Below are positions 1 through 52,462 of a stretch of DNA of 52,749 bases, piece by piece. The notes beneath the pieces were generated by a model. The model worked only from the letters and a program-made list of their open reading frames with translations, was not told the origin of the DNA and did no database searches. Location of the stretch: contig CAMKRZ010000006.1 of the NCBI GenBank assembly GCA_946415315.1, forward strand, positions 68,168-120,916, given 5' to 3'. Positions within the stretch are counted from its first letter, which is position 1, and each line of letters begins with the position of its first letter. The translations under genes were made by a program, and so were the position numbers. This DNA comes from an uncultured Lachnoclostridium sp. GTDB taxonomy: Bacteria > Bacillota > Clostridia > Lachnospirales > Lachnospiraceae.

Positions 1-1098
1 CTCTCCCTCCCGGAAAATCGGATAACCCTTGAACTCATCGTCTTTGTTGCCGAACTGCAGAAAATAGATTTCGCTGGATTCCGGCGTGCCTTTGTATGCC
101 TTGATGATCTCGGCCCGGAAGATCGTATGTCCCTTATCACACCCCAGATTCTCAACAAGCCGCACGGAGGCAAGGATCTCCGCCTCGCTCCAGGTTTCAG
201 CCATCGTTCTCTTTACCAAAGAGCCCTTCCCGTTCTGTCCTTCCCCGTTGTCCTTCTCCCCGAGGATGTATTCGAGGTACACCCCGACGGTTGCCAGTTT
301 TTCGGCAATCAGTACACGGCCGTCGGAGAAATCGGACCGGTCGATCAGGAACAGCAGATTCGCAAGCGGTCTCGCTGTCGGACGATCGTCCGTTTCCTCC
401 ACCTCAACAGAAAACCACTCCCCGTGCTCGTCCAGCAGCTGCAGCACGGCAGCAATCCGGTCCTCCCGTTCGCTCAGCTCCTTCAGCCCGGAAAAATGTG
501 TTTTTGCTGTCTCATATCCGGTATCGTGGTCCTCATAGAGCAACATGCTGTAATCGCTCATCAGCGGGTACCATAACACCGACTGAAGCAGATCGGTTGT
601 CGTCATATCGGCCAGCACATCCTTCGGGATCCTGCATGCTTCGATCCTCTCCTCATGGTTTTTGTTTTGCCACAACGACATGAACGGAAGCACCGGATAC
701 CGGTATCCCGTATAACCTTCCGGATAGTACATCTGCAGGATCTGCTCGTCGGTGTACTTCGATCTTCTGTTGTTGTCCTTCGGATCCGCCGTCGGGATGA
801 CCGTCGCGGTGACCGTAGCCTCCCCCGCCGGTTTCTCCTTAGCGTTTCTTTTATTGTTCGCGATGCTGATCCCGAGGACAACCGTTCCGACGAGCAGCAT
901 CGCAATGCATGCAGCCTTCTGGTACCACTTCATTCCGGTAACAATGGTTGAAGCGTTCGACATCTCATCCAAGTGGTTCTCGTTCCCGCTCGTCACACTC
1001 TCAGCATCAGACTGTACATTTTCCGGACCAATGGCTGCATTTCGAATATATTTTTCGTTGATTTCTCCAATCGCCTTCAGTAAATCGTGCTCCGTCAT
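1..1098 (-). CDS. membrane protein coupled to an ECF sigma factor (putative anti-sigma partner), 3' end cut by window
   Basis: An open frame of 366 codons runs from an ATG at 1098 to the first base of the window without a stop, so the C-terminus is missing. The N-terminus (MTEHDLLKAIGEINEKYI) is a short acidic cytoplasmic segment of a type often found on proteins encoded next to ECF sigma genes. One hydrophobic segment follows at about residues 57-76 (KAACIAMLLVGTVVLGIS), then a long extracytoplasmic region I do not recognise. Its ATG overlaps the sigma stop codon (ATGA), which implies translational coupling. By position it is likely an anti-sigma factor or sigma-controlled sensor, but no known anti-sigma domain such as a zinc-binding HxxxCxxC motif is visible. 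The reading frame is certain; the function is inferred from context only. Confidence 0.7.
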   Translation of the reverse strand, partial: MTEHDLLKAIGEINEKYIRNAAIGPENVQSDAESVTSGNENHLDEMSNASTIVTGMKWYQKAACIAMLLVGTVVLGISIANNKRNAKEKPAGEATVTATVIPTADPKDNNRRSKYTDEQILQMYYPEGYTGYRYPVLPFMSLWQNKNHEERIEACRIPKDVLADMTTTDLLQSVLWYPLMSDYSMLLYEDHDTGYETAKTHFSGLKELSEREDRIAAVLQLLDEHGEWFSVEVEETDDRPTARPLANLLFLIDRSDFSDGRVLIAEKLATVGVYLEYILGEKDNGEGQNGKGSLVKRTMAETWSEAEILASVRLVENLGCDKGHTIFRAEIIKAYKGTPESSEIYFLQFGNKDDEFKGYPIFREGE

Positions 1099-1664
1099 AT
1101 GGTAAACCCTTCCTTCTTCAATTGCTTTCGCAAGGCCGTCCTCATTCGGTGAAGCATGGTTTTCACCTTGCTCTCCGAGAAGCCGTACCTGTCGCTGATC
1201 TGCGGGATCGTGTCAAAATACCAGTACCGTCTCACGAAAACATTCTGCTGCTCTTTCGTACAGGTCTCGAGAAAACGATTGATCACTTCGCTCAGTCCCG
1301 AGTACTCCTGTCCCTCCTCATCCGTCCCCGAAGGGATGCATTCCATCATCTCCTGTGTGAGCTCACAATACACGGCATACCGTTTTTTCGCACGTTCCTT
1401 CCTGCACCGGTTCAGCGCGATGTTCCGGATGATCTTTGCGAGAAATTCGTACAGATACCCTCTCGGCTCATGCGGAGGTATCCGGTTCCACGCTTCCATA
1501 TACGCATCATTCTCGCATTCCTCCGCGCTCTCCCGATCATTGAGGATCGCATAGGCAACATTTCGGAGGCTTGCGCCGTAACGTTCCGCTGTCCTGGCAA
1601 TGGCCTGCTCATCTCTGGCCAGATAGAGCTCCACGATCTCATTGTCGTTCAACCTGTCGTTCAC
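1095..1664 (-). CDS. ECF-type RNA polymerase sigma factor
   Basis: A 189-residue sigma70-family protein of ECF layout. Region 2 lies in the first half (DRESAEECENDAYMEAWNRI, the polymerase-binding and -10 recognition helices) and region 4 helix-turn-helix at the C-terminus (DTIPQISDRYGFSESKVKTM). I chose the GTG at 1664 because GGGAGGTG lies about 9 bases upstream and homologues begin a few residues before the NEIVELYLARDEQAI stretch; the frame stays open upstream to 1766. The stop overlaps the ATG of the next gene by 4 bases, so sigma and membrane partner should be made together. It is divergent from the glutamate synthase operon. Region 3 is absent, as expected for an ECF sigma. Confidence 0.85.
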   Translation of the reverse strand: MNDRLNDNEIVELYLARDEQAIARTAERYGASLRNVAYAILNDRESAEECENDAYMEAWNRIPPHEPRGYLYEFLAKIIRNIALNRCRKERAKKRYAVYCELTQEMMECIPSGTDEEGQEYSGLSEVINRFLETCTKEQQNVFVRRYWYFDTIPQISDRYGFSESKVKTMLHRMRTALRKQLKKEGFTI

Positions 1665-1701
1665 CGAAGCGCCACCTCCCTCTGAAAGAATCCTTTCACC
1701 C

Positions 1702-3087: not shown

Positions 3088-4592
3088 TGGGCATCGATTT
3101 TATCTATCCGGAATTTGAAGTTGTGCGGAATCCGGACCGCTGTATCGCCTGCCGCGTATGTGAGCGACAGTGCGCCAACGAGGTTCATGCATTTGACCCC
3201 GAGACAGGCCGTATGATCAGCGACGAAAGTAAATGTGTGAACTGCCAGCGCTGCGTCTCGCTGTGCCCGACGCGCGCCCTTAAGATTGTGAAAAGCGATT
3301 GCCAGCTTCGGGAAAATGCGAACTGGCAGAACGATACGATCCGCGAGATCTACAAACAGGCGGGAAGCGGCGGCGTGCTGCTCTCCTCCATGGGTAACCC
3401 GAAACCCTTGCCGGTGTACTGGGACCGCATTCTGATCAACGCCTCACAGGTGACCAACCCTCCGATCGACCCGCTGCGCGAGCCGATGGAGACGCAGGTT
3501 ACGCTCGGCAAGCGTCCCGAGAAAATGACGCGCGATGCGGACGGCAACCTCGTCTGCGATCTTCCTCCGCATGTGACGCTCTCGATGCCCGTGATGTTCT
3601 CCGCGATGAGCTACGGCTCCATCAGCTACAATGCCCACGCCTCCCTCGCCCGCGCGGCAACGGAGCTCGGCATTCTCTACAACACCGGTGAGGGCGGTCT
3701 GCACGAGGACTTCTACTGCTACGGACCGAACACCGTCGTTCAGGTGGCCAGCGGCCGTTTCGGTGTGCATGAAGCATACCTCGAGGCCGGCGCGGCGATC
3801 GAGATCAAGATGGGTCAGGGCGCAAAGCCCGGCATCGGCGGACATCTTCCCGGTGCCAAGATCGTCGGCGATGTCTCGAGAACGCGTATGATCCCCGAGG
3901 GTTCGGACGCGATCTCGCCGGCTCCTCATCACGATATCTACTCGATTGAGGACCTGAGACAGCTCGTATTTTCCTTAAAAGAAGCGACCGGCTACCGCAA
4001 GCCCGTCATCGTCAAGGTAGCGGCCGTCCATAATATTGCGGCGATCGCAAGCGGCATCGCCAGGAGCGGTGCGGACATCATCGCGATCGACGGCTTCCGC
4101 GGCGGTACCGGAGCGGCTCCTACGAAGATCCGCGACAACGTCGGTATCCCGATTGAGCTTGCGCTCGCGGCGGTTGACCAGCGTCTGCGCGACGAGGGAA
4201 TCCGCAACAACGTCTCGCTCGTCGTCGGCGGTTCCATCCGGAGCGCCTCCGATGTGATCAAGGCCGTCGCGCTCGGCGCGGACGCCTGCTACATCGCGAC
4301 TGCTGCCCTGCTCGCACTCGGCTGCCATCTGTGCCGCACGTGCCAGAGCGGCAAATGCAACTGGGGTATCGCAACGCAGCGCCCCGACCTCGTGAAGCGC
4401 CTCAACCCCGACATGGGAAGCGAACGGCTCATCAACCTGATGACCGCGTGGAAGCACGAGATCAAAGAACTCCTGGGCGGCATGGGTATCAACTCCATCG
4501 AAGCCCTTCGCGGCAACCGGCTGATGCTTCGCGGCGTCGGTCTCACGGAGAAAGAACTGGAGATCCTCGGAATCTCCCACGCAGGAGAGTGA
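3087..4592 (+). CDS. glutamate synthase FMN-binding catalytic subunit with N-terminal ferredoxin domain
   Basis: 501 residues. The N-terminus carries two 4Fe-4S motifs (CIACRVCERQC, then CVNCQRCVSLCP, residues about 13-55). The remainder is the FMN-containing TIM-barrel synthase domain: RGGTGAAPTKIRDN and GADACYIATAALLALGC are typical FMN/2-oxoglutarate site segments, and CHLCRTCQSGKC supplies the cysteines of the 3Fe-4S cluster. It makes glutamate from 2-oxoglutarate and ammonia released by the preceding subunit, with electrons from the following ferredoxin and flavoprotein. Length and order fit archaeal-type GltB. The identification is firm at domain level. Confidence 0.9.
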   Translation: MGIDFIYPEFEVVRNPDRCIACRVCERQCANEVHAFDPETGRMISDESKCVNCQRCVSLCPTRALKIVKSDCQLRENANWQNDTIREIYKQAGSGGVLLSSMGNPKPLPVYWDRILINASQVTNPPIDPLREPMETQVTLGKRPEKMTRDADGNLVCDLPPHVTLSMPVMFSAMSYGSISYNAHASLARAATELGILYNTGEGGLHEDFYCYGPNTVVQVASGRFGVHEAYLEAGAAIEIKMGQGAKPGIGGHLPGAKIVGDVSRTRMIPEGSDAISPAPHHDIYSIEDLRQLVFSLKEATGYRKPVIVKVAAVHNIAAIASGIARSGADIIAIDGFRGGTGAAPTKIRDNVGIPIELALAAVDQRLRDEGIRNNVSLVVGGSIRSASDVIKAVALGADACYIATAALLALGCHLCRTCQSGKCNWGIATQRPDLVKRLNPDMGSERLINLMTAWKHEIKELLGGMGINSIEALRGNRLMLRGVGLTEKELEILGISHAGE

Positions 4593-5040: not shown

Positions 5041-6284
5041 AACGATATGTGATCATCGGTAACGGAGTCGCGGCCGCAGGCTGTATCGAAGGCATCCGCA
5101 GCGTGGATACGGAAGGTGAGATCACCGTCATCTCCGCGGAGAAGCACGAGGTTTACTGCCGTCCGCTCATCTCCTACTATCTGGAGGGCAAGACCGACCT
5201 CACGCGCATGAGCTACCGCGCCGAGGACTTTTATTCGAAAAACGGTGTCCGCGTCATCTACGGTGAGTCCGCGACTGCGATCAATCCCGACGACGCGACC
5301 GTGACCGTCTCGGACGGCACGGTGCTCCCGTACGATGCGGTTTGCGTTGCCGCAGGCTCGTCACCGTTCGTACCGCCGATGGAAGGCCTCGATACGGTGG
5401 AGAAGAAATACTCCTTTCTCACCCTGGATGATGCTCTCGCGCTTGAACAGGCGATCACGCCGGAATCCCGCGTGCTGATCGTCGGCGCCGGTCTGATCGG
5501 TCTGAAGTGCGCCGAAGGTATTCAGGAGCGTGTCGCAAGCATCACGGTATGCGATCTCGCGAACCGCGTGCTCTCGAGCATCCTCGATGACGAGTGCGCG
5601 GCGCTGATGCAAAGAAAACTTGAAGAGCACGGAATTCAGTTCCTGCTCGGTGACAGTGTCTCGAAGTTTGAGCCGGACGGTTCCGGCAGTTATACGGCCC
5701 ATATGAAAAGCGGAGCCGACACGTCGTTCGACGTGCTCGTGCTCGCGGTCGGCGTCCGCGCCAACACAGGTCTTCTGAAGGCGATCGGCGGTAACGTGAA
5801 CCGCGGCATCGTGGTGGACAACCGTCTGGCGACCTCGATCCCGGGCATCTATTCTGCTGGTGACTGCGCGGAAGGCTACGACGTGACGATCGGTGCAAAC
5901 CGCGTCCTCGCGATCTTCCCGAACGCCTACATGCAGGGTCATGCGGCAGGCGTGAACATGGCCGGCGGTGAGGAACTCTTTGACTGCGGCATGCCGATGA
6001 ACTCGATCGGATTCTTCGGTCTGCACGCGATGACGGCAGGCGCCTATGAGGGTGAGTGCTACGAGGAGACAACCCCCGAGTCGATCAAGCGCCTGTATGT
6101 GAAGGATGATCTTCTCAAAGGTTTCCTGCTGATCGGTTGCCACGAGCGCGCCGGAATCTACACATCGCTCATCCGCAACCGCACACCGCTCTCGGAGATC
6201 GATTTCGAGCTGATGAAACAAGGAGCGACAACGGCAGCATTTTCCTCGGAAAATCGTAGAAAAAAGTTTGGAGGTGTGGTATAA
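5037..6284 (+). CDS. FAD/NAD(P)-dependent pyridine nucleotide-disulphide family oxidoreductase of the glutamate synthase
   Basis: 415 residues with two Rossmann folds: an FAD site at the N-terminus (VIIGNGVAAAGCIEGIR) and an NAD(P) site near residue 140 (VLIVGAGLIGLKCAEGI). SIPGIYSAGDCAEGYD is the usual FAD-contacting segment before the C-terminal domain. It resembles rubredoxin/nitrite-reductase type NADH oxidoreductases rather than classical GltD. In this operon it most likely oxidises NAD(P)H and feeds electrons through the adjacent ferredoxin to the synthase. Its start overlaps the ferredoxin stop (ATGA), and the next gene follows directly. Confidence 0.85.
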   Translation: MKRYVIIGNGVAAAGCIEGIRSVDTEGEITVISAEKHEVYCRPLISYYLEGKTDLTRMSYRAEDFYSKNGVRVIYGESATAINPDDATVTVSDGTVLPYDAVCVAAGSSPFVPPMEGLDTVEKKYSFLTLDDALALEQAITPESRVLIVGAGLIGLKCAEGIQERVASITVCDLANRVLSSILDDECAALMQRKLEEHGIQFLLGDSVSKFEPDGSGSYTAHMKSGADTSFDVLVLAVGVRANTGLLKAIGGNVNRGIVVDNRLATSIPGIYSAGDCAEGYDVTIGANRVLAIFPNAYMQGHAAGVNMAGGEELFDCGMPMNSIGFFGLHAMTAGAYEGECYEETTPESIKRLYVKDDLLKGFLLIGCHERAGIYTSLIRNRTPLSEIDFELMKQGATTAAFSSENRRKKFGGVV

Positions 6285-7007
6285 ATGACTAAGATACAAG
6301 CTCAGGGATTGGACCACAAAGCGCTCAATAACGCCATCCGCGACGCAGGCGGCGACTGCATCATCGAAGGGTGTCTCGGACAGCGCTTCATCGCCTCCGG
6401 CATGTCCGGTCTCTCCGTGGATATCCACGGTGTCCCGGGCAACGCGCTCGGCGCCTACTTAAACGGTGCGACCATCTCGGTGGAGGGCAACGCGCAGGAC
6501 GCGGTGGGCGACACGATGAACGAAGGTCTCATCGCGGTGCACGGCAACATCGGTGACGCGGCAGGCTACGCGATGCGCGGCGGCCGCATCTACGTAAAAG
6601 GCAACGCCGGATACCGCGCGGGCATCCACATGAAGGCATTTCACGAGAAGTTCCCGGTGATGATCATCGGCGGGAGAACCGGCAGTTTCTTAGGCGAGTA
6701 CCAGGCGGGCGGCGTCATCGTCGTTCTCAACCTGGAGGAACCTTCGCAGCGGATCGTGGGGAATTTTCCGTGCACAGGAATGCACGGTGGGAAAATGTTC
6801 CTGCGCTCGGACTGCAAGGACATCTCCTTCCCCGCACAGGTCACGGCACGACCGGCTGAGGCGGAGGACATTGAGGAGCTTACTCCCTATCTGAACGATT
6901 ACTGCGAGCACTTCGGGCTCGAGCTTGAGAAGGTACTGGATGCGCCGTTCACGGTGGTCACGCCGGACAGCCGCAATCCGTACCGACAGATGTATGTAGC
7001 TAACTGA
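6285..7007 (+). CDS. glutamate synthase GXGXG-domain subunit (GltB domain 3)
   Basis: 240 residues forming the right-handed beta-helix found at the C-terminus of full-length GltB. Regular repeats end in G-x-x-G turns, for example VSGLSVDIHGVPGNALG, ATISVEGNAQDAVGD and GGRIYVKGNAGYRAG. The domain is structural in glutamate synthase and holds the others together. The ATG comes one base after the preceding stop, behind TTTGGAGGTG. It completes the split enzyme: amidotransferase, FMN synthase, ferredoxin, flavoprotein, beta-helix. Confidence 0.88.
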   Translation: MTKIQAQGLDHKALNNAIRDAGGDCIIEGCLGQRFIASGMSGLSVDIHGVPGNALGAYLNGATISVEGNAQDAVGDTMNEGLIAVHGNIGDAAGYAMRGGRIYVKGNAGYRAGIHMKAFHEKFPVMIIGGRTGSFLGEYQAGGVIVVLNLEEPSQRIVGNFPCTGMHGGKMFLRSDCKDISFPAQVTARPAEAEDIEELTPYLNDYCEHFGLELEKVLDAPFTVVTPDSRNPYRQMYVAN

Positions 7008-10730: not shown

Positions 10731-10760
10731 TATTTAATCGGAAAATGCGTTGTTTGTCAA
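10731..10760 (-). promoter_or_regulatory. promoter of tRNA-Ala
   Basis: On the minus strand TTGACA (10755-10760) is followed after 17 bases by TTAAAT (10732-10737), or after 18 by TAAATA. One copy of the repeated word GGAAAATG (10740-10747) lies in the spacer and an inverted 7-base copy (10773-10779) lies upstream. The start site would be about 12 bases before the mature tRNA. Confidence 0.65.
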
Positions 10761-12766: not shown

Positions 12767-12807
12767 AAAGCGGGAAAATGTCGCTATTTCCGACATTTTC
12801 CCGCTTT
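12767..12807. terminator. 17-bp perfect hairpin terminator built from two inverted GGAAAATG words
   Basis: AAAGCGGGAAAATGTCG (12767-12783) pairs without mismatch with 12791-12807 around the loop CTATTTC. On the minus strand the stem ends in TTT then CTGC, so it can terminate the riboflavin/Sel1 operon; the palindrome also works on the plus strand. Each arm contains one copy of the 8-mer over-represented across the window. The rest of the 390-base gap 12533-12922 holds the GGDEF promoter region and no gene I can support. Confidence 0.8.
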
Positions 12808-14365: not shown

Positions 14366-15580
14366 TCAGTCCAGCTTGATCTCGTTGAAAATGTGCCCCA
14401 TCCGCTCCTGCTTGGTCCGCATGTACCGCAGGTCGTAGCGTCCCGGTTCGATCTCGATCGGCACGCGCTCGCGGATCTCGAAGTTGAAGCCCTCCAGGCC
14501 GTAGATCTTGCTCGGGTTGTTGGTGAGAAGCCGAAGCGACTTGACGCCGAGACTCTGCAAAATCTGCGCGCCGCTCCAGTATTCACGGAGGTCCGCCTCG
14601 AAACCGAGTTTTAAATTCGCGTCCACCGTGTCGTAACCGATCTCCTGCAGCTCGTACGCCTTCAGCTTGTTGATCAGTCCGATGCCCCGGCCCTCCTGCC
14701 GCATGTACAGGATGATGCCCCGGCCTTCCTCCTGCACCATCCGCATCGCGGTGTGCAGCTGCTCGCCGCAGTCGCAGCGCGCCGAGCCGAACACGTCGCC
14801 GGTCAGGCACTCCGAGTGAACGCGGCACAGGATGTTCTCCCCGTCACCGATGTCCCCGCACACAAGCGCCACATGGTGCTCGCCGGTGATGTCGTTGACA
14901 AAGCCGCAGATCTTGAACTCGCCGTACGCCGTCGGCAACTTGGCTTCCGCCGCGCGGTGCATGTGATTCTCATAGCGCCGCAGATAGTTCTGAAGGTCGC
15001 GGATCGTGATGAAGCAGAGTCCGAATTTCTGCGCCATCTCCTGCAGTTCCGGCGTGCGCATCATCGTGCCGTCATCGCGCATCACCTCGCAGCAGAGGCC
15101 GCATTCCTGCAGTCCCGCAAGCCGGCAGAGGTCGACCGTCGCCTCGGTGTGGCCGTTGCGCGCAAGCACACCGCCCTTTCTCGCCGTGAGAGGGAACACG
15201 TGCCCGGGTCTTCGCAGATCCTCCGGCTTTGTATCAGGGTCGGCGCACGCACGGCACGTAAAGCCACGCTCCTCCGCCGAGATGCCCGTCGTCGTCTTCA
15301 CATGGTCGACGGAGACGGTAAATGCGGTACAGTGGTTGTCCGTATTTTCCGAGACCATCTGCGGAAGATTGAGACGCTTCGCGATTCCTGCGGACAACGG
15401 CATGCAGATCAGCCCGCGTCCGTACTGCGCCATAAAATTGACGTTCTCCGTCGTTGCGAACTGTGCAGCGCAGATCAGGTCGCCCTCATTTTCCCGATCC
15501 GGATCGTCCGTGCACAGGATCAGCTTGCCTGCCCTGAGCGCCTCGATCGCCTCGGGAATCGTGTTGTATTGAAACTCCAT
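14366..15580 (-). CDS. ribBA: bifunctional 3,4-dihydroxy-2-butanone-4-phosphate synthase / GTP cyclohydrolase II
   Basis: 404 residues. The N-terminal half (1-200) is DHBP synthase: [16 protein letters not shown] is the acidic substrate/metal loop and GHTEATVDL follows. The C-terminal half (about 205-404) is GTP cyclohydrolase II with the zinc cysteines in [20 protein letters not shown] and RQEGRGIGL. The two activities supply both branches of riboflavin synthesis, from ribulose 5-phosphate and GTP. It lies between ribE and ribH in the FMN-riboswitch operon. Length is normal for the fused form. Confidence 0.95.
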
Positions 15581-15642: not shown

Positions 15643-16329
15643 TTATAAAAATCCGTTGCGCGCCAGGAGGTCCATGGTCACACTTTCATCGGACCCGGAA
15701 AATGACGCTCTTCCGTCGCCGGTTCCGTTTGCTCCCGCAGTTCCGTAACGCAACAGTTTCTGTACGTATTTGCCGACAATGTCGGTCTCCAGGTTGACGG
15801 TGTCGCCTGCGGCCTTGCGCAGCAAAACCGTCTCGTCCGCCGTGTGCGGTATGATGGACACGCTGAACTCCGTGTCGGTCACCGATGCGACCGTCAGGCT
15901 GATGCCGTCGATCGCGATCGAGCCCTTCTCGACCACGAGCGCCAGCAGTTCCCGTGCTGCCGCGATCGTCACGACCACCGCGTTCTCATCCCGCTTCATC
16001 TGCGCGATCCTGCCCGTGCCATCGATGTGCCCGGACACGATGTGTCCGCCGAACCGTCCGTCCGCCGCCATCGCCCGCTCCAGGTCGACCGGGCTGCCCT
16101 TCCGAAGCGTTCCCAGGTTGCTTCTGCGAAGCGTCTCCGGCATAACATCCGCCGTGAAGCCGTCCGATGACAAGCCGGTCACCGTGAGGCACACGCCGTT
16201 CACGGCGATGGAGTCGCCGATCTTCGTTCCGGCAAGCACCTTGCGGGCCTGTATCGCGATCTCGCCGGAACGACTGCCGGTGATCACCTGCCGCACAATT
16301 CCGACCTCTTCCACTATTCCGGTAAACAT
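15643..16329 (-). CDS. ribE: riboflavin synthase alpha chain
   Basis: 228 residues with the two internally repeated lumazine-binding barrels. MFTGIVEEVG begins the first and GGHIVSGHIDGTG the second, and GVCLTVT and GISLTVASV are corresponding repeat segments. It dismutates two lumazine molecules to riboflavin. I chose the ATG at 16329, which has GAGGTG 6 bases upstream, rather than the overlapping GTG at 16338. It follows ribD and precedes ribBA. The C-terminal tail (about 195-228) is Ser/Gly-rich and longer than usual. Confidence 0.95.
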   Translation of the reverse strand: MFTGIVEEVGIVRQVITGSRSGEIAIQARKVLAGTKIGDSIAVNGVCLTVTGLSSDGFTADVMPETLRRSNLGTLRKGSPVDLERAMAADGRFGGHIVSGHIDGTGRIAQMKRDENAVVVTIAAARELLALVVEKGSIAIDGISLTVASVTDTEFSVSIIPHTADETVLLRKAAGDTVNLETDIVGKYVQKLLRYGTAGANGTGDGRASFSGSDESVTMDLLARNGFL

Positions 16330-17593: not shown

Positions 17594-17623
17594 GATCGAA
17601 TTCATAGCAAATAAAGAATCGAC

Positions 17624-17726: not shown

Positions 17727-17735
17727 TCGATTATG

Positions 17736-17764: not shown

Positions 17765-17792
17765 GCGCATCATTTTCCGTGAACCGGTAACG

Positions 17793-19421: not shown

Positions 19422-19491
19422 CACTGTCTCCTTCCCCAAGTCGGGGTCTGCTCGTTGCGGCGGTTTTCATTTTCCGCATCAACACCGCAAT

Positions 19492-20129: not shown

Positions 20130-20140
20130 GCGGAAAATGG

Positions 20141-24920: not shown

Positions 24921-24998
24921 TTTCCGAACTCCTATATTGCCTCCGGTGCCAGAGCACAGGGCGCGGTCGACTGCAGCCGGCCGCTGTTATACACGGTT

Positions 24999-32278: not shown

Positions 32279-32307
32279 ATTATAGCATTTTCCGAGGTTC
32301 AAATCAA
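32279..32307 (-). promoter_or_regulatory. promoter of dnaE
   Basis: Minus-strand TTGATT (32302-32307), a 17-base spacer and a perfect TATAAT (32279-32284). The spacer contains CGGAAAATG, one of the repeated words of this window. The -35 overlaps the tail of the uvrC terminator. Confidence 0.75.
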
Positions 32308-36763: not shown

Positions 36764-38875
36764 TCAATCAAGTATGTCTTTGAAATACTTCTCCACAAGC
36801 TCGTCGGAGATCCCCTTCGCCTTCACGAAATCCCGGATCACCTTCGGCCCGCGGCCGGTCACCGTCTTCCTCAGTGAATTCACACTGCTCTGCCAGCCGG
36901 AGTAACTGCGGTAGTTGGTCTTCTTCACCGGATCCTTGACCGGATGCCAGCGCGCGCAGTTGTAAACCATATCATGGTCGATGCGCTCGACGAAACTGTC
37001 AATGTAGGCGTTGCAGCGCTCTTCCGTGAACACCGTGCTTACGATATAGGCCATCCGCTCGCAGAACAGTTCGCGGAACTCATCATTTTCCAGTAGACGA
37101 TAGACAAGCGCGTTGAACGTGTAGTAACCCGCGTTAAATGTTCCGATCAGCTGATTGGTCATCCCCTCGGGTTCGCGGCACAGCGTGAGGTCGAGGTCGT
37201 ACAGGAAGAAAAGCCATTTTCCGTTTTGCGTGTCTCCGGGCTTAAAGACGCAGACGTTGTCCGGATCGATGTTGCCGACCCACAGCTGCACGCAGTAGTA
37301 ATCGGCGACGCTCTGCAGATCAACAACCGACTTGACGTACTCGTAGGCCTCCGCATCCTTCAGGCTGTTATTCGTGATGAATTTCCAGAGGTCCTTCCAC
37401 TCCCTGCCTTCCGTACCGCTCTTGACAATATTCATCTGCTTGACGAGCGTGACTTCCTCGGGATCGCAGCCGTAGTGCGACGCGATCATATCCTCATCCT
37501 TGTGCTCGCGGATGTAATAGATGCCGAAGTACTCGTCGTTGATATAGAGATTCACGGGATGGTACGCCTGGACCAGGAGATCGTCGATCATCCCGTCGTC
37601 CGTGACGAGCGAAGTGACGAGCTCATCCTTCATCAGCGTCGCTTCGTTGTCCTGGCTTCCCGACCGCAGCACGATCGAGTTGAACTCATCGATGTCGAGG
37701 TTGTCAAACATCCTGTACTGCAGTTTGGACGGTCCGTACGCTGTCGAAAAATGGATCTGGTAGCTCTTCTTGATGTACGCCCGGCTCGAGCCGCCGAACG
37801 TGCTCGCGGCGCAGTCGACGGAAAATGCGAGTTCGCCGCCGACGAACATCGAAATGTTGGCCGCGTACTTTGCGCTGGACATATAGTTCTCGTTCATCGT
37901 GTCGAGATCGGCCTGTTTGATCGACATCCGCACCACATCGAGCTCGTACTCCGGCGCATCGATAAAATAATCAAACGTTGCCGGAAAACTCGCAAGACAG
38001 CCGTCCTCCTCCGCATAAGCGCGAAGCGAACAATTTTGAGTGATTTCGATCGGCTGACCGTCCCACACCTTCAAGGCGGATGTCGGAGCGCTGCCATCCA
38101 GCGTGTACCGGATCGTGCCGCCGGTAGTGAAACGGACCGTCTGTCCGCCTGTGAAAAATCCCGGCGCGAGATCAACAGCCGGCTGCGTCGCCATCCTCGC
38201 ATAGCCGCCCTCATTGGCTTCGCCGAGTGTCGGTTTGTCGTAGATCCGGTAGTCTTCCCCGTCGCGCCCGTAGCTCACATTTTGCGGAAGCTCCGGATAC
38301 TCCACCATATCGAGGATGTTGCCGTTCCGGTCTGCCAGATAGACCTTCTCGCCGAAGTAGGAAAGTTTGAATTTCAGGTCGTACTCGTCCTTCGCATAGT
38401 ACTCCCCTGTGCAGTAAAACACTGCGTATCCGCCCGCAGGAAGTTCAACTTCCGGGAGCGGATACTGCGTGAGTTTCTTCTTGGAATCGGACAGACAGTA
38501 ATCGGAAAGCATGACGGGCTCATCCGAGATGTTGCGGATTTCGATCGCATCATAATAGTCACCGTTACGCTTGTTGTACTGATTGTTCGTGGGCAGGATC
38601 TCATTGATGCGTAACAGCGAAGGCGTCGGGGTCGGGGTCGGGGTTGCGACCGCCACGGTTGCCGACGGTTTCGGTGTCAGTTCCGACTGCCCCGGATCTT
38701 CTCCCTGCGTGATAACCGCTTTCGGTGTTGTCTCCCCGGGCGTCGTATTCAGTTTGGTTTTGTCAGGGGATACGCTTGTCACGGAAACCGCGGGACCGAT
38801 GCTCTGCGAGTTCCCGTAGGTGACCAGCGCGAAAACGACCGCGAAGGAAAGCAGTATCAGCAAAGCTTTTTTCAT
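36764..38875 (-). CDS. surface CotH-kinase family protein with lamin-tail domain (paralogue 2)
   Basis: 703 residues. The domain order matches the neighbouring paralogue: signal peptide ([20 protein letters not shown]), a shorter Pro/Thr linker (ATPTPTPTPS), lamin-tail domain (INEILPTNNQYNKRNGDYYD), chitobiase-like domain and CotH kinase with KKSYQIHFS, YIREHKDEDMIASHYG and FFLYDLDLTLCREPEG. The two proteins differ mainly in linker length. Its ATG overlaps the ftsH stop (ATGA), so it is translated with the membrane protease FtsH, an unusual pairing. Confidence 0.88.
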   Translation of the reverse strand: MKKALLILLSFAVVFALVTYGNSQSIGPAVSVTSVSPDKTKLNTTPGETTPKAVITQGEDPGQSELTPKPSATVAVATPTPTPTPSLLRINEILPTNNQYNKRNGDYYDAIEIRNISDEPVMLSDYCLSDSKKKLTQYPLPEVELPAGGYAVFYCTGEYYAKDEYDLKFKLSYFGEKVYLADRNGNILDMVEYPELPQNVSYGRDGEDYRIYDKPTLGEANEGGYARMATQPAVDLAPGFFTGGQTVRFTTGGTIRYTLDGSAPTSALKVWDGQPIEITQNCSLRAYAEEDGCLASFPATFDYFIDAPEYELDVVRMSIKQADLDTMNENYMSSAKYAANISMFVGGELAFSVDCAASTFGGSSRAYIKKSYQIHFSTAYGPSKLQYRMFDNLDIDEFNSIVLRSGSQDNEATLMKDELVTSLVTDDGMIDDLLVQAYHPVNLYINDEYFGIYYIREHKDEDMIASHYGCDPEEVTLVKQMNIVKSGTEGREWKDLWKFITNNSLKDAEAYEYVKSVVDLQSVADYYCVQLWVGNIDPDNVCVFKPGDTQNGKWLFFLYDLDLTLCREPEGMTNQLIGTFNAGYYTFNALVYRLLENDEFRELFCERMAYIVSTVFTEERCNAYIDSFVERIDHDMVYNCARWHPVKDPVKKTNYRSYSGWQSSVNSLRKTVTGRGPKVIRDFVKAKGISDELVEKYFKDILD

Positions 38876-40917: not shown

Positions 40918-41039
40918 AGTACTTCTCCCTCCTGCGCTGTCCGTCCTCCGGGCAGCGCCGCCCGCGTCGGCTCCCGGCATTGCCGGCCGTTGCCGCACAG
41001 GCTTCCTTCATTCATTTTCCGGCAAAAGCCGTCATATCC

Positions 41040-44281: not shown

Positions 44282-44884
44282 CTACATTGACGCAAAATTC
44301 CTAAGGATCTGCATGCCGACATCCCCGCTCTTCTCGGGGTGGAATTGGCATGCGCACAGGTTGTCGTGCTCGACCGCCGCGTGGATCGTCACGCCGTACT
44401 CCGTCGTCGCCGCGACATCCGCGACATTGCCCGCCTGCAGGTAGTACGAATGCACGAAGTAAACGTAACTCTCCTCCGGGATTTCCTTAAACAACTTTGA
44501 CTCCTTCGGAAAATGCAGGTCGTTCCAGCCGATGTGCGGGATCTTCCGTCCGCCTCCCTCGGGGATCCGGACGATCCGACCCGGCAGGATTGAAAGGCCC
44601 TTCACGCCGGGCGCTTCCTCGCTCGAGTCGAACAGTAGCTGCAGCCCGAGGCATATCCCGAGAAAGGGCTTCTCAGTCGCAACCTCGCGGATCACACCGA
44701 TCAGGTCACGCTCTGCCAGTTTGTTCATCGCGTCGCCGAATGCCCCGACGCCCGGAAGGATCACCCTGTCCGCCGCGCGGACCACCGCGGGATCGGATGT
44801 CACCCTGTTGTCAATGCCGAGCGAAAGCAGCGCATTTTCCACGCTCTTGATATTGCCGGCATCGTAATCAATGATTGCTATCAT
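44282..44884 (-). CDS. hisH: imidazole glycerol phosphate synthase glutaminase subunit
   Basis: 200 residues, class I glutamine amidotransferase. The nucleophile is in [12 protein letters not shown] and the catalytic His/Glu in CQFHPEKSG. It supplies ammonia to HisF. The ATG at 44884, with GGAGA about 9 bases upstream and overlapping the histidine-kinase gene by 17 bases, begins the conserved [18 protein letters not shown]. The overlap suggests that histidine synthesis genes here are translated with a two-component system. Confidence 0.95.
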
Positions 44885-46370
44885 GTGTCTCGTATCTCCG
44901 TTCCTCGCCTGCAGGTTCCAGTTCAAACCAGAACTCCACACCGTTCTCGTGGTTCTCCACACCGAACCGGCGATGATGTCGATCCATCACGGCCTTCACG
45001 ATGGAGAGGCCGAGACCGCTGCCGCCGTACTCGCGGCTGCGGGCTTTATCCACCTTGTAAAACTTCGTCCAGATCTTGTCGATATCCTCAGCAGGGATCG
45101 GCACGCCCGTGTTGTACACGGATACGCGGACCGACTCCTCGGTCGTCTCCAGCGAGACCGCGATCTCCTTCGACTTCGACGCGTGGTTGATCGCGTTGCT
45201 GATGTAGTTCGTCACGACCTCCTCGATCATGTACTCGTCCGCCCACACGTACACGGGTTCCGTCTCGTGCCAGTGCAGCTTGATCTCCTTCTGCGTGCGA
45301 AGTACTTCCGTCGATGCGAGAACGCCGCTGATGAGCCCGACAATATCAAAACGCGAGTACTCCACCTGGTTGCCGCCGAACTCCAGCTGGTTTAACGTCA
45401 GGAGCTTCCGCACCATCCGGTTCATCTTCGCCGCCTCGTCGGAAATGACATTGCAGTAGTATTCACGGCTCTCCGCGTCGTCGGTGACATTTTCCGCAAG
45501 ACCTTCCGCATAGCCCTGGATCAGAGCGATCGGCGTCTTCAGTTCATGGGAAACGTTGGCGATGAAATCTGATCTCATCTCGTCGAGCTCCGTGCGGTAA
45601 TCAAGATCCCGCTGCAGCTCGCTGTTGGCATTCTTCAACTCGCCGATCGTCTCCTGCAACCGCTCGGACAGGCGGTTCAGCGACCCGGCCAGAAGTCCGA
45701 TCTCGTCGCTCCTGTGCTCCTCGCAGCGCGCTTCAAAATCGAGACCTGCCATGCGCTCCGCGACTTCCGACATCTGCCGGATTGGCTTCGTAACCGTTCG
45801 GCTGATCAGCATCGCGAACAGGATGGACACGACCAACACGACCAATCCGACGATCAGGAGCCGGTCCGTGATATACCGGTTATCGCTCTCCATCTCCATG
45901 TAGCTCGTGCGGATCAGCACGGTAAAGCCGTTGCTGAGCGTGCCGTACAGATCGATGTTCTGCAGCTTCGTCGTATCATCGATGTTCTGGTACACCGTGT
46001 AATTTTCCGTCGCCGCCAGCTCCTTGATCTCGTTCTTCTTGCTGTATCCGGTGTAGCGAAGGATCGGATCCATGTACCAGGTGTCTGCGTTTGTGCTGTA
46101 GCTGACCTTCTGTTTGGCGTTGTACAGAAAGAGCTTGTACTGCTGCCCGACGCGCACGGCGATCTGTTCCCGCTCCGTGCGCTCGACTTTCTGCGCGTCT
46201 GCCAGGATCTCATCCAGCGTGGAGTAGCACTTCTCGATCTCCTGCACTTTCCGCTTGAACGAAAAGTCATCGATCAGGATGCGAAACAACAGCCACATGC
46301 CGCCGACGCTGACGATGATCAGCACCGCGCAGGCAATCATCATTTTGAAACGAAAGGATATCTTCTTCAT
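44868..46370 (-). CDS. membrane sensor histidine kinase with HAMP domain
   Basis: 500 residues. Two transmembrane helices (about 10-32 and 172-194) flank an extracytoplasmic sensor of about 140 residues. A HAMP domain (about 195-247), HisKA with SHELKTPIALIQGYAEGL (the phosphorylated His) and HATPase_c with a KAPS-like loop DKARSREYGGSGLGLSIV follow. It is a complete, presumably active, kinase pairing with the OmpR-type regulator upstream (87-base gap). Its 3' end overlaps hisH. The signal is unknown. Confidence 0.93.
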   Translation of the reverse strand: MKKISFRFKMMIACAVLIIVSVGGMWLLFRILIDDFSFKRKVQEIEKCYSTLDEILADAQKVERTEREQIAVRVGQQYKLFLYNAKQKVSYSTNADTWYMDPILRYTGYSKKNEIKELAATENYTVYQNIDDTTKLQNIDLYGTLSNGFTVLIRTSYMEMESDNRYITDRLLIVGLVVLVVSILFAMLISRTVTKPIRQMSEVAERMAGLDFEARCEEHRSDEIGLLAGSLNRLSERLQETIGELKNANSELQRDLDYRTELDEMRSDFIANVSHELKTPIALIQGYAEGLAENVTDDAESREYYCNVISDEAAKMNRMVRKLLTLNQLEFGGNQVEYSRFDIVGLISGVLASTEVLRTQKEIKLHWHETEPVYVWADEYMIEEVVTNYISNAINHASKSKEIAVSLETTEESVRVSVYNTGVPIPAEDIDKIWTKFYKVDKARSREYGGSGLGLSIVKAVMDRHHRRFGVENHENGVEFWFELEPAGEERRYETHDSNH

Positions 46371-48375: not shown

Positions 48376-48377
48376 CC

Positions 48378-49784
48378 TTATCCTTCATACGTTCCCATGA
48401 AGATTGGCAAACCTTCGGAATCCACGATCACATAGACGAACGGACGATCCAGAACCACGCGGTAAGGAGTTCCGGGCATCACTGCCGTTACCTCATCGAC
48501 GAAGATACCGGTCACGGCGGCAGCCTTTGTCCCCTTGTCATCAACGCTGATGTACGTCTTGTGGACCACTTTGCTCACATAAGTGGGAATCCCCTCAAAC
48601 AGACGGCTGAGATTCGCAAGATCATCGTCAAATGCATCCGTCATCCCGAGGCTCATCAAAGCATCTGTGAGGGTAACCGCATACTCAGTCTTATACTTCG
48701 GAAGACCGATCGTGATGTCGCCCGATTCCGCGTGCATGCACAGATTGCGAAGTACGCCCGGCTGAAGCGAATCGATCAGCGCCTCAATGCTCACGCCCTC
48801 CTTCGGGAGCAACGCCACATAGGAGAACGCATTTCCCTCGTAGGACTTGATAAACCCGGTCGCGGACTCATTTTCCAGATAACCGTACGTCATATCGTCG
48901 AACATCATCTCGACTTTCTGCTTCGTTCCGTCCGCCTTCGTAAAATCATAGTCCTCCACGATACGCGCCTCGGCAAATGGAGATGCCCATTTTGCGTCGA
49001 GCGCGATGGCGTTCAGAAGGATCATCACGTTGTCAGGGGAAAGTTCCTTGACAAGCTCCTTGATCATCCCCATCGTGTTCTGATCCACCCAGTTGTTGAC
49101 ATCCTGAACGGTTTCGTCGTTCATCAGGGCAGAGAACACCGCTGCCTTGTAATACTGCGCGCACGTATTGAGAAATGTCGTCGGCACATACTGCTCTCTG
49201 TCATTCCGGATCCAGATGGAATCCGCGTTGGTGAACTTGACGGCCTCGGTCTGCCTGCTCGTGAGTGCGGCGATCCATGCTGCCAGGTATGCGTTGCGCT
49301 CCTCGTCCGTCAGGCCGAGCAGCTGATCGATCTGCGCGAGCGTGTTGCCATCCGCGCCGTTTGCGAGCATGGCGAGCGCCGTGTAGATGGAGAACGGAGA
49401 GATCATGCGCGTCTCACCACTCGCAGTAGTTCGGAACATCTGATAGGCAAATGTCTCGTACGCCTTCCGCATGACTTCGTCCATTTCCTTCGTCTTCGCG
49501 GGTGTTCCGGAAGAACCGGCTGTCAGTTCGCGGGAGCCGCTCGGATCCTTTCCCTGCTCCGGAGTCGGCGTCGGTGTCGCAGGCGGTTCCGTAGGCATAG
49601 GCTCGTTTTTTGTAGGCGTAGGCTCTGCTTTCGTAGGCGTAGGCTCTGCTTTCGTAGGTGTTGCGGTTGCGGTCTTTCCCTCCTTGCCGCTCTTCTCCGT
49701 AGTACCGGAGCCACACCCGACGCATGCTGTCATGACGGCGATCACGCAGAGCAGCGCGATCATTTTACGAATTGTTTTTTTCAT
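48378..49784 (-). CDS. serpin lipoprotein (third in operon)
   Basis: 468 residues. The signal peptide has lipobox cysteines at 21 and 24 (VMTACVGC). A Pro/Thr linker with a tandem KAEPTPT repeat spans about 40-80. The serpin domain (about 100-468) shows ISPFSIYTALAMLANGADG, LLNAIALDAKW, PKYKTEYAVTL, the hinge DDKGTKAAAVT and the C-terminal VVLDRPFVYVIV. P14 Thr and the Ala run indicate an inhibitory serpin. By counting from the hinge, P1-P1' falls near V-T in VDEVTAV, which would suit an elastase-like protease, within one or two residues. It follows the upstream serpin by 16 bases. Confidence 0.92.
   Translation of the reverse strand: MKKTIRKMIALLCVIAVMTACVGCGSGTTEKSGKEGKTATATPTKAEPTPTKAEPTPTKNEPMPTEPPATPTPTPEQGKDPSGSRELTAGSSGTPAKTKEMDEVMRKAYETFAYQMFRTTASGETRMISPFSIYTALAMLANGADGNTLAQIDQLLGLTDEERNAYLAAWIAALTSRQTEAVKFTNADSIWIRNDREQYVPTTFLNTCAQYYKAAVFSALMNDETVQDVNNWVDQNTMGMIKELVKELSPDNVMILLNAIALDAKWASPFAEARIVEDYDFTKADGTKQKVEMMFDDMTYGYLENESATGFIKSYEGNAFSYVALLPKEGVSIEALIDSLQPGVLRNLCMHAESGDITIGLPKYKTEYAVTLTDALMSLGMTDAFDDDLANLSRLFEGIPTYVSKVVHKTYISVDDKGTKAAAVTGIFVDEVTAVMPGTPYRVVLDRPFVYVIVDSEGLPIFMGTYEG
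49608..49662. repeat. short tandem repeat in the serpin linker
   Basis: Two and a half copies of a 21-base unit (core GTAGGCGTAGGCTCTGCTTT) encode the repeated KAEPTPT linker. Such an array could change copy number and so linker length. Confidence 0.7.
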
Positions 49785-49800: not shown

Positions 49801-51195
49801 TTAGCGATATGTTCCGATAAAAATCGGCAGATTGTTTCCGTCCGTGATCATGTACACGAACGGTCGGTCGAGCGTCACCCGATACGTTTTGGAGATGCTC
49901 ATATTTCTTGTCGTGATGGCGGTCACTGCCGCAGCCCGGGTGCCCTCGTTGTCCAGTGCGAGATACGTCTTGTGGATCACCCGGTCCACAACGGTGTTGC
50001 CGGTGCTGATCATGCGCGTGAGATCGGCGGCTGGCGTAAACGCGTCACCCATGCCGAGCGCCGCCAGAACATCCTGCAGCTCCTGCCGGTATTCCACAGT
50101 GTACTTCGGGATCTGAAGGCTTACATTTTCCCTGATTGCGTTTGCGAACAGCGCGTCAACCGACTCCGCGGTCAGCTTGGCGATCACCTCATCGACGCTC
50201 ACGCCCTCCTTCGGAAGCAGCGCAACGTAGCGGAATTCTCCGCCTTTGTAACTCTTCGCGCAGCCGGTGACAAACTCGTTCTCCAGATAGCACCGGTCGG
50301 CCTCGCCGCGCAGCATCTCGACGTTCTCCGTTGTACCGTCCTCATGCGTAAACACCGCGTCGCTGAGCGTGTTTTCGTTGTCAAACGGAATCATCCATTT
50401 GGCTTCGAGCGTGATCGCATTCAGAAGAACCGTCACGGTTTCCGGCGTCAGATCGCCGTGTTCGAGTATCTTTTGGATCATCGACTTCGTGTTTCGGTCC
50501 GTCCAGGCGTTGATGTCATCAACCGTTCCGTCGTTCATGTCTGCCGCGTACACTTCCGCGTGATACGAATCCGCACATCTTCCGAGGAACGAATCCAACA
50601 CGACATTTCGGAACAGGTTGGAAACCCAGACCGAATCGGCGCAGGTAAACGAGATATCCTCCTGCCCCGTCAGGCTCGCGATCCACGCCGCCATGTAAGC
50701 GTTGCGGGATGCCTCATCCAGTCCCAGCACCTGATCGATCTGCGCTGCCGTGTTGCCGTTCGCGCCGTTCGCTAACATCGCCAGCGCGGTATATACGGAA
50801 AATGGAGACAGCAGGCAGTTTTTCGCCTCTCCTCCGCTGCTCTTCGCACAGGCCGCAAACAACCGGTAGGCAAAGGTCGCGTACGCTGCCCTCATCGTCT
50901 CGTCCATCGGCTTTGTCCCCGCCGCGGTTCCCGAGCTCCCGGTCAGCTCCGTCGTCCCCTGCGCGGGCGCCGTTGTCGGTTTCGCAGATTCACCGGTCGG
51001 CTCCGCCACGCCGTCTGTCGGTTTCTGCGTTCCGTCAGTCGGTTTCGCGGGAGTCTCCGTCGGAGTTTTCTCTTTTTTGGTAACAACCTCCACCTCACCC
51101 GAGGTCGGTTCTGCGGCGCAAGCGATGCAGAAAAAAGCCGTCATTGCCGCCAGAACAAGTGCCAGGATCCGTCTTTGTAAATGATGTTTTCTCAT
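49801..51195 (-). CDS. serpin lipoprotein (second in operon)
   Basis: 464 residues from the ATG at 51195 (GAGGGG upstream). Signal peptide with a candidate lipid cysteine at 26 (FFCIACAAEP), Lys/Thr/Pro linker with four KPTDG/EPTG-like repeats (about 40-85), then a serpin domain: LSPFSVYTALAMLANGANG, LLNAITLEAKW, PKYTVEYRQEL, hinge DNEGTRAAAVT, VTLDRPFVYMIT. P14 is Thr. The loop between hinge and LDRPF is about 3 residues shorter than in the neighbouring serpins, with P1 near N-M-S, so its target protease should differ. It starts 4 bases after the first serpin stops. Confidence 0.92.
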   Translation of the reverse strand: MRKHHLQRRILALVLAAMTAFFCIACAAEPTSGEVEVVTKKEKTPTETPAKPTDGTQKPTDGVAEPTGESAKPTTAPAQGTTELTGSSGTAAGTKPMDETMRAAYATFAYRLFAACAKSSGGEAKNCLLSPFSVYTALAMLANGANGNTAAQIDQVLGLDEASRNAYMAAWIASLTGQEDISFTCADSVWVSNLFRNVVLDSFLGRCADSYHAEVYAADMNDGTVDDINAWTDRNTKSMIQKILEHGDLTPETVTVLLNAITLEAKWMIPFDNENTLSDAVFTHEDGTTENVEMLRGEADRCYLENEFVTGCAKSYKGGEFRYVALLPKEGVSVDEVIAKLTAESVDALFANAIRENVSLQIPKYTVEYRQELQDVLAALGMGDAFTPAADLTRMISTGNTVVDRVIHKTYLALDNEGTRAAAVTAITTRNMSISKTYRVTLDRPFVYMITDGNNLPIFIGTYR

Positions 51196-51199
51196 GCTT

Positions 51200-52462
51200 C
51201 TACCCCTCATACGTACCGATGAACAGCGGAACACCGATCTCGTCGTCCATGATCATATACACGAACGGTCGGTCCAGGCGGACCGTGATTTCCTCGGGGA
51301 TCGGCGCTGCCGCCGCCTCCTTGAGCCCGACCGCTGTCGCCGCTGCCGCGCGCGTTCCCTCCTCATCGACCTCCACGCGAACCTGATGGATCACGAAATC
51401 GATTGCCAACTCCCGATCGTCCAGGATCTCCGTCAGTCCGCCGGAAAATGCAGCTGTCATTCCCATTTTCCGAAGGATCGTCTCCATCGCGTCGTTGCGA
51501 TAGTCCGTCGTAAAACGCGGCATCTCCAGCGTGACCTGCGCGGATTTGCGGTTGTCATAATTATACACCTTGTCCAGATACTCGGGAGTGAGCGCTTCGA
51601 TCAGCGTCTCAAGACTCACGCCCTCCCTCGGCTGGAAGACGACAAATGAGTTGTTGTACTCCTCGTAATACTTGTGAACCGAGGTGCACAGGTCATCGCG
51701 GTAGTAAGAGCCGGTCAACGTCTCGCACATGAGATCCACGGTTCCGGTCTTCTCTCCGTTCTCCCCGTAAAAATCGGCGTTCTTCTCAGTCTTCGCCTTG
51801 TCGAACGGTTTTGCCCAGTTGCGGTCGAACAAAACCGTATTGACCAGCAGCATGCGAAGTCCCGGTGTCATTTCCTTCAAAATTTCGGGGATCATGTCAT
51901 CGGTGTTATTGCTGACCCAGGTGTTGATATCCTTGACCGTCGATCCGTCAAGCGGTGCTTTGAAGACGGACGCCCGGTAACACTTCGAGCAGACATCCAG
52001 GAAGGACCGTTTTGCCGAATCCGCGATCTCGTCCTGGATCCAGATCGAATTCGCGACCTTCACCCCGCCGTCTTTCGACCATTTGTCGATCAGCGTCGAT
52101 AAGTACCGGTTCATGGTATCCTTCGGCAGACCGAACATCTCTTCCATCTGGCTGAGCGTCTCCCCGGAAGCCCCGTTTTCCACCATGGCGAGCGCGAGCA
52201 TCACGGAGATCGGCGACACGGTGAAGGAGTTGTCCACCCCCTCATGCGCCATCCGGAACATCGTAAGCGCATACGACCGGTATGCTTCGGAAAATGTTTC
52301 GTCCGCCTCGAGTTTCTCCCCTCCGGAGCCGGACCCCGAGGATGCGGGTTCCGCCAGCGCGACCGCTTTCTCATATTTTTTTGCGCATCCGCACATCGAC
52401 ATCAGAAACACTGCCGTCAAACCGATCGCGATAATGCGTCGCAACAATCGATTGTTTCTCAT
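51200..52462 (-). CDS. serpin lipoprotein (first in operon)
   Basis: 420 residues. Signal peptide ending MSMCGC gives a lipid anchor at Cys26; the linker is short (Ser/Gly). Serpin features: VSPISVMLALAMVENGASG, LLVNTVLFDRNW, PRFTTDYRNDAM, and a near-consensus inhibitory hinge DEEGTRAAAAT followed by a loop with P1-P1' near A-A (KEAAAAP), then VRLDRPFVYMIM. It is the first gene of three in a row, and the closest of the four serpins here to the canonical inhibitory hinge. An intragenic inverted pair of GGAAAATG words lies at 51443-51471. Confidence 0.93.
   Translation of the reverse strand: MRNNRLLRRIIAIGLTAVFLMSMCGCAKKYEKAVALAEPASSGSGSGGEKLEADETFSEAYRSYALTMFRMAHEGVDNSFTVSPISVMLALAMVENGASGETLSQMEEMFGLPKDTMNRYLSTLIDKWSKDGGVKVANSIWIQDEIADSAKRSFLDVCSKCYRASVFKAPLDGSTVKDINTWVSNNTDDMIPEILKEMTPGLRMLLVNTVLFDRNWAKPFDKAKTEKNADFYGENGEKTGTVDLMCETLTGSYYRDDLCTSVHKYYEEYNNSFVVFQPREGVSLETLIEALTPEYLDKVYNYDNRKSAQVTLEMPRFTTDYRNDAMETILRKMGMTAAFSGGLTEILDDRELAIDFVIHQVRVEVDEEGTRAAAATAVGLKEAAAAPIPEEITVRLDRPFVYMIMDDEIGVPLFIGTYEG

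Follow-up and report, generated by a model that had tools for sequence, protein, structure and literature searches.

A dispersed octamer in an uncultured Lachnoclostridium genome resembles a DNA uptake sequence and occurs in dialects among related species

Copies of the word in the window

The DNA analyzed here is a stretch of 52,749 nucleotides, referred to below as the window, from contig CAMKRZ010000006.1 (positions 68,168 to 120,916) of the assembly GCA_946415315.1 of an uncultured Lachnoclostridium sp. belonging to Lachnospiraceae. The window is strewn with the octamer GGAAAATG, whose distribution here, in the rest of the genome and in related genomes suggests that it may serve in the recognition of DNA during natural transformation. 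The first-pass annotation had counted 40 copies (19 and 21 in the two orientations); the mixture of orientations is confirmed, and the exact total is 41, with 19 copies on the plus and 22 on the minus strand. According to our own gene calls, 31 of these copies are genic, one lies over a start codon and nine are situated outside called genes.

Copies within genes are found at 1017..1024 (-, in the gene 1..1098-), 3311..3318 (+), 6790..6797 (+) and, on the minus strand, at 15487..15494, 22242..22249, 23569..23576, 25511..25518, 34623..34630, 37084..37091, 37215..37222, 45488..45495, 48869..48876 and 50124..50131. A dnaE-type gene carries two further copies on the minus strand (31963..31970 and 32286..32293) and one antisense copy (30451..30458, +). 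Genes are also crossed in antisense at 6238..6245 (-) and, on the plus strand, at 15697..15704, 21406..21413, 23675..23682, 25070..25077, 26503..26510, 32881..32888, 35272..35279, 37820..37827 and 50797..50804. Two positions touch the borders of genes. The TsaE gene starts with the ATG of the copy at 24918..24925 (-), as had been proposed, and the copy at 23784..23791 (-) lies at the 3' end of another gene and overlaps its stop codon; this overlap had been ascribed to tsaB, and the gene in fact matches the Pfam model of TsaD.

Intergenic copies are located at 10740..10747 (+), 17771..17778 (-), 19468..19475 (-), 20132..20139 (+) and 41013..41020 (-), and two more, in inverted orientation (12773-12780 + and 12794-12801 -), lie inside an intergenic dyad at 12767..12807. 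The dyad has perfect arms of 17 bases and a loop of 7 bases, is not followed by a long T-run on the plus strand, and may possibly act as a terminator. The copies at 44508..44515 (+) and 44833..44840 (-) lie outside called genes and inside an uncalled open reading frame (44282..44962-), so that the number of intergenic copies in the window is 7 to 9, in agreement with the earlier claim of at least seven. The copy at 17771..17778 stands just upstream of a flavin mononucleotide (FMN) riboswitch aptamer (17617-17732, -), which precedes the gene 16378..17472-. The window also contains two serpin genes, both on the minus strand (17793-19439 and 51200-52462). The first is crossed in antisense by a copy at 19223..19230 (+) and the second by a copy at 52289..52296 (+); a second pair of inverted copies (51443..51471; 51443-51450 + and 51464-51471 -) is situated inside the latter gene.

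Enrichment and extended form of the word

No other octamer of the window is over-represented as strongly as GGAAAATG (z 18). One hundred dinucleotide shuffles of the window gave a mean of 1.88 copies and a maximum of 6, and a third-order Markov model predicts 4.2, which sets the excess at about 10- to 22-fold. The strong over-representation reported earlier is therefore real, and the value of roughly 35-fold attached to it was too high. In the whole assembly of 2,933,571 bases that contains the window, 1,763 copies are present (890 and 873 on the two strands), about 600 per Mb, as compared with 35 copies (18 and 17) of the reversed word. Genome-wide counts near the Markov expectation had been named as one of two refuting outcomes, and they were not seen: in 421 kb of the same genome 273 copies were found against an expectation of 34.7.

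The longer consensus proposed along with the octamer was borne out as well. The most over-represented nonamer of the window is CGGAAAATG (24 observed, 1.8 expected), and TTCGGAAAATG occurs 39 times in the 421 kb, where 0.8 copies are expected. Single-base variants in this sample show that the core G-AAAAT is rigid, that the second G is tolerant and that the outer C and outer G are partly so. The base preceding the 273 sites is C in 56% of cases and the following base avoids G (9%), with weak preferences for pyrimidines at -3, -4 and -6; the best form is TTCGGAAAATG with A, C or T as the next base. The flanks are otherwise unrelated, which indicates that the word is not a dispersed repeat. The gaps between copies are distributed nearly exponentially, with near-Poisson spacing (coefficient of variation 0.95). 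Two other words were recorded: the palindrome CGCTGATCAGCG occurs at 5 places in the 421 kb (10 over both strands, 0.26 expected), and GTCGGGGT is present 9 times in the window (0.9 expected).

Coding context and strand polarity

Gene calling with a simple Markov caller on 814 kb of the window's genome yielded 671 genes and 91% coding sequence. The 497 copies in this sample comprise 399 within genes, 92 in intergenic DNA and 6 at boundaries, which corresponds to 0.54 copies per kb in genes and 1.23 per kb between them, a 2.3-fold difference. All six reading positions are used (22/56/143 copies over the three phases in sense and 13/95/70 in antisense orientation), and sense copies slightly exceed antisense ones (221 vs 178, p 0.035). 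When synonymous codons were shuffled within genes, 51.3 copies were obtained on average (sd 6.0, maximum 60, 20 runs), as against the 399 observed. A called start codon was supplied by 6 of 502 copies. The dismissal of codon-pair preference in the first-pass annotation is therefore upheld.

The same applies to its dismissal of polar words. The leading strand, assigned by local GC skew, carries 265 copies and the lagging strand 232 (p 0.15), so that neither a significant replication bias nor a polarity of the Chi type was found. Each of the 20 stretches making up the 421 kb contains both orientations, with totals of 144 and 129; the ten stretches of positive GC skew hold 65 and 52 copies and the ten of negative skew 79 and 77, and single stretches vary (13/5, 8/2). 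A strong skew along the replichores, of the kind seen with FtsK orienting polar sequences (KOPS) or SpoIIIE recognition sequences (SRS), was not found in these stretches.

Orientation of neighbouring copies

In 834 kb of the window's genome, neighbouring copies stand in opposite orientation more often than in the same one (267 vs 194, p 0.0008), and the tendency is stronger for neighbours closer than 800 bp (113 vs 58, p 3e-5). Nine relatives of the clade that includes the window's genome (clade A, described below; 30 loci, 558 kb, with the relative G007 left out because it uses another dialect) behave likewise, with 142 opposite and 100 same neighbours (p 0.008). In the own and clade-A sets the preference extends up to about 1.6 kb, and its sign is reversed beyond 3.2 kb. 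Of the pairs closer than 100 bp in the own genome, 22 of 23 are inverted. The 14 such pairs in the 421 kb do not exceed the Poisson expectation of about 17, which implies that it is the same-direction pairs that are missing. The alternation might reflect a need for one usable site on each strand, although this is a guess.

Inverted pairs had also been taken for terminators. The intergenic dyad at 12773/12794 agrees with such a use, while the pair at 51443/51464 lies inside a gene. Among the 18 close opposite pairs (up to 45 bp apart) in the 834 kb, 11 are inside genes and 7 are intergenic or at gene edges, a share that exceeds that of single copies. Termination as the main role of the word was rejected, given the 11 pairs within genes.

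Dialects among related genomes

The best match of the DnaE-type protein of the window (88% identity) comes from the metagenome assembly JAFZMO010000010.1 (Lachnospiraceae, water buffalo reticulum), and the second from a protein of 64% identity; most titles among the 80 matches kept are Lachnospiraceae or its genera. The genus set consists of 22 genomes including the window's own, and its members carry between 221 and 1,763 copies of GGAAAATG. A DnaE tree of 27 proteins, in which G021 is missing for want of a match, orders these counts. The first clade, clade A, has 11 members including the window's genome, with about 450-650 copies per Mb, G007 being the exception (269). Six members form a second clade, with 204-392 copies of GGAAAATG and 193-279 of its C-form GGCAAATG per Mb. 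The third group comprises G011 (349 per Mb), G015 (178) and the sisters G006 (116) and G017 (99), the densities of the last two being within the range of other genera. The share of the C-form is the clearest mark of dialect: the ratio of GGCAAATG to GGAAAATG amounts to 13-33% in the first clade when G007 is set aside, to 93% in G007 itself and to 49-125% among members of the second clade.

Overall, the dialect is CGGAAAATG in one clade and GG[A/C]AAATG[C/T]GA in another, and sampled stretches gave concordant k-mers. CGGAAAATG is the leading k-mer in G014, G005 and G019. In G007, GGCAAATGC (24 vs 1.7 expected) and AAAATGCA (38 vs 5.6) stand out, in G001 AAATGTGA (37 vs 3.8), and in G016 GGCAAATG (33 vs 5.2) and CAAATGTG (20 vs 2.3); in G008, GGAAAATG is still the top word (44 vs 8.2). 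An expectation-maximisation motif search with a capped number of sites, for which 7 of 41 loci of the window's own genome were used, returned the consensus CGGAAAATG(C) for the first clade, CGG[A/C]AAATGCA for G007, GGAAAATGCGG for G011 and forms like GGCAAATGCGA for G001, G008, G012, G016 and G018. Related species carry dialects of the word along the DnaE phylogeny. In the samples of G006 and G017 (120 kb and 103 kb), GGAAAATG stood at 12 vs 10.1 expected and 17 vs 9.3, respectively, and no other dominant word was found. The top words there were considered as a replacement and discarded, as they look like pieces of longer repeats.

The wider family was covered by 80 loci matching the DnaE-type protein, nearly all from other genera (one, L020, is genus material), and by 299 genomes of 298 genera. 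The median observed-to-expected ratio of GG[A/C]AAATG across the 80 loci is 1.1. In most of the 299 genomes the word exceeds its reversed form, far less than in the window's genome. Outside the genus G139 stands out, with 791 and 825 copies on the two strands (about 557 per Mb); the next densities among the genomes read off are about 313, 291, 286, 275 and 256 per Mb. G061 has 231 and 282 copies genome-wide. G139 and G061 had first been picked for their high counts, as the two best of the 80 loci after L020, and their samples hold 27 copies against 6.3 expected (50 kb) and 13 against 2.5 (20 kb), respectively. The first of the two loci belongs to G063, which is taken to be G139 because its counts are identical. 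Samples of G123 (4 vs 2.3) and G258 (1 vs 0.4, in 5 kb only) do not confirm the excess in their genome counts. In 20 kb of a related contig (L078) there is a repeat, in which ACGTGAAACA is present 8 times, with 4 copies on each strand, and 4 places carry the palindrome TTCACGTGAA.

Turnover of sites and scarcity in foreign DNA

In alignments of the window with the DnaE region from ten relatives in clade A, the word was intact at 29 of 87 sites, as against 126 of 589 for octamers of the same composition. In ten other genus members the figures were 1 of 43 and 63 of 422. At the same time, nine of the ten clade-A relatives keep about 450-650 copies per Mb. The positions thus turn over while the density is maintained, and this suits a process of gain acting on the whole genome rather than fixed regulatory sites.

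The dependence on base composition was followed in genes of at least 300 bp, divided into six bins by GC content at third codon positions (GC3), by comparing observed with synonymously shuffled counts. Their ratio starts at 3.5 in the lowest bin and rises to 15.3 in the highest, and the 5% of genes with the lowest GC3 (n=31) hold 3 copies, where 2.4 are expected. From base composition by itself, an AT-rich word should be commoner in low-GC genes. In G005, two prophage regions (20 kb each), recognised by matches to portal, terminase, head, tail and tape-measure proteins and perhaps including some host DNA, contain 2 copies and 1 copy. These 3 copies in 40 kb compare with 18 expected from the G005 genome average (P 1.8e-5) or 15 from other sampled stretches (P 3e-4). 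The word is scarce in the mobile and presumably recently acquired DNA examined here.

Uptake genes

Genes for the import of DNA are widespread in the genus. ComEC was found in 20 of the 22 members, the exceptions being G020 and G021, both of which are incomplete. ComEA models match all 22, above the cut-off in 21; ATPases of PF00437 are present in all 22, with a strong full match of the PilB type (E < 1e-130) in 17, and DprA in 20, not having been found in G009 and G015. In G015 (contig C63) and G016 (C57), ComEC is split into two matches, with internal stops in G016, which may represent a pseudogene or an assembly error. In the window's own genome a pilus operon on contig 5, at about 66.7-80 kb, encodes ATPases of the PilB and PilT types, a PilC-type T2SSF protein, PilM and a prepilin peptidase. 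It also encodes six pilin-like proteins, of which five have an N-methylation motif above the cut-off.

Seven clade-A pilus loci were compared, with the limits that they are truncated at the ends, that the starts of genes are approximate and that some genes were missed by the caller. A full-length PilT was called in four of the seven, where it is 99-100% identical, and the last four pilin-like proteins show 30-58% identity over aligned stretches, some of which are short. These divergent proteins are candidates for a fast-evolving receptor, and no more.

Discussion

Uptake sequences are described in PMC3630211 and PMC12616744 as dispersed words with hundreds to thousands of copies, in dialects that follow phylogeny, lying in genes and between them and often paired as inverted terminators. 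Sequence-specific uptake is reported in PMC5031613 and PMC12616744 for two families, Neisseriaceae, with the DNA uptake sequence (DUS), and Pasteurellaceae, with the uptake signal sequence (USS). Judged from the genomes, GGAAAATG probably serves a naturally transformable lineage of Lachnospiraceae as its uptake sequence and would work in the manner of DUS and USS. A resemblance to DUS had been suggested in the first-pass annotation, and the suggestion has gained support from the dialects that follow the tree, from the scarcity of the word in prophage and low-GC3 DNA and from the presence of uptake genes; uptake itself we infer.

A surface DNA receptor, most likely a fast-evolving minor pilin of the pilus operon, would prefer DNA bearing the word. 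Retraction of the pilus would then deliver the DNA to ComEA and further to ComEC, and the imported strand would recombine. Preferred uptake of word-bearing alleles would cause copies born by mutation to spread until the genome filled with the word, and drift in the preference of the receptor would give rise to dialects. The genomic steps of this scheme are observed, and to them the model would add binding by the receptor, a preference in uptake and the biased spread of copies.

Several observations weigh against this interpretation. The excess of opposite neighbours is not predicted by an uptake model, and the use of inverted pairs as terminators, common in Neisseriaceae, is weak and minor here. 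The conservation of sites within clade A exceeds that of control octamers (odds ratio 1.8, p 0.02), an effect that is small and drawn from non-independent pairs. Of the 31 genes with the lowest GC3, 21 are located within the initial 60 kb of contig 1, and portal genes of the searched Pfam family were found in 1 of 22 genus genomes, so that the prophage comparison rests on one host. In the motif search, the best score went to a letter-shuffled and not to a real seed for 13 of 21 genomes; the winning shuffled seeds converged on codon-periodic, low-complexity or poly-A patterns. The likelihoods are thus confounded by codon periodicity, and the dialects rest on the k-mer and whole-genome counts, with which the consensus letters agree. 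In at least two further lineages (G139 and G061) the octamer is likewise frequent, with different flanks, which means that it is not strictly bound to the genus and is either older than it or arose more than once. No orthologue of ComP was found above the cut-off among the six pilin-like proteins tested; the sole match to PF16732 (ComP_DUS), in a pilin at L181:10856-11422, is below the threshold (E 0.0058, 17.9 bits, cut-off 27.3). Finally, G006 and G017 lack the enriched word and keep the pilus ATPases, ComEA, ComEC and DprA. As these two species and other genera have the same gear, the machinery must be regarded as necessary and not as specific.

Other explanations for the abundance of the word were weighed against the same results. 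Chromosome-organising or nucleoid-associated proteins might use it as a binding site, for which its neutrality to orientation, its spread over the whole genome and its scarcity in the foreign DNA examined would speak. Sites of this class (matS, Noc sites, parS and SlmA sites) number tens to hundreds, cluster regionally and are often palindromic, whereas GGAAAATG is not palindromic and is spaced almost at random, and neither the turnover of its sites nor its dialects would be expected of a conserved architectural protein, which makes this explanation unlikely. The word could also be a recombination hot spot of the Chi type, recognised by AddAB or RecBCD, and would then owe its enrichment to the protection of broken chromosome ends. 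Chi words have the length of an octamer and about a thousand copies in a genome, with core DNA richer in them than phage DNA, and the prophage regions and lowest-GC3 genes examined here are indeed poor in GGAAAATG. However, Chi acts in a single orientation and, in known cases, favours the leading strand, whereas the copies of GGAAAATG show no significant bias between leading and lagging strands and alternate between neighbours; dialects within a genus and two unenriched species would also be unusual, and we regard a Chi function as quite unlikely.

A link to a modification, restriction or other defence system, in which the word would be kept as a mark of self, would fit the dialects and the scarcity in prophages. 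Targets of restriction are usually avoided or neutral in their host and not enriched, and dense enrichment in intergenic DNA and in all frames calls for a process that adds copies, so that a role of this kind appears very unlikely. That the word is an artefact of codon pairs, start sites or base composition is hardly credible. It does partly resemble a ribosome-binding site with an ATG, most genomes of the family show some excess over the reversed word, and the frames are unequally used, with sense copies ahead of antisense ones; such an origin is nevertheless refuted by the synonymous shuffles, the higher density between genes and the few start codons involved, and in the 80 loci the two forms GG[A/C]AAATG occur about as often as the Markov model predicts.

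Taking GGAAAATG as an uptake sequence, we lean towards a broader proposal, held with somewhat less assurance, namely that it would represent a third, independently evolved uptake code, used by monoderm rumen and gut Clostridia and characterised by species dialects, gating of transformation through a type IV pilus and copies alternating in orientation, by which each strand of any incoming fragment would have a usable site at its flank. No earlier report of an uptake word in Bacillota or other Gram-positive bacteria was found in the literature searched, which covered only a minority of subscription papers. If the proposal is true, self-specific uptake arose at least three times and needs no outer membrane, and it operates in gut communities, where the exchange of genes matters. 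These rumen species would be predicted to be transformable with word-bearing DNA, which would offer a handle for genetic tools. Moreover, a genus with several dialects and two unenriched members would be a natural series for studying the origin, shift and loss of an uptake code.

Comparison with known systems

As far as the word and the receptor model show, the putative system is not homologous to either DUS or USS. The word shares the genomic features of DUS and USS that were tested, except for common use in terminators. Like Chi sites, it is an octamer with about a thousand copies, and unlike them it shows no significant strand polarity and has dialects inside one genus. In common with the DUS of Neisseriaceae, as characterised in PMC3630211 and PMC5031613, it is short, non-palindromic and dispersed in hundreds to thousands of copies, lies in genes and between them, and has dialects that follow phylogeny, which is that of the core genome for DUS and the DnaE tree here. 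As with DUS and ComP, the genome bearing it has type IV pilus genes. It differs from DUS in that the two words have no sequence similarity, the host is Gram-positive, no ComP match exceeds the cut-off among the six pilin-like proteins tested and the putative system is known here from genomes; inverted pairs, frequent in DUS genomes according to PMC3630211, are minor here. The USS of Pasteurellaceae is a different word, with a 9-base core, two dialects and a density that spans about 31 to 913 per Mb across 150 genomes (PMC12616744), and the two are alike in copy density, that of GGAAAATG in the window's genome falling within this range.

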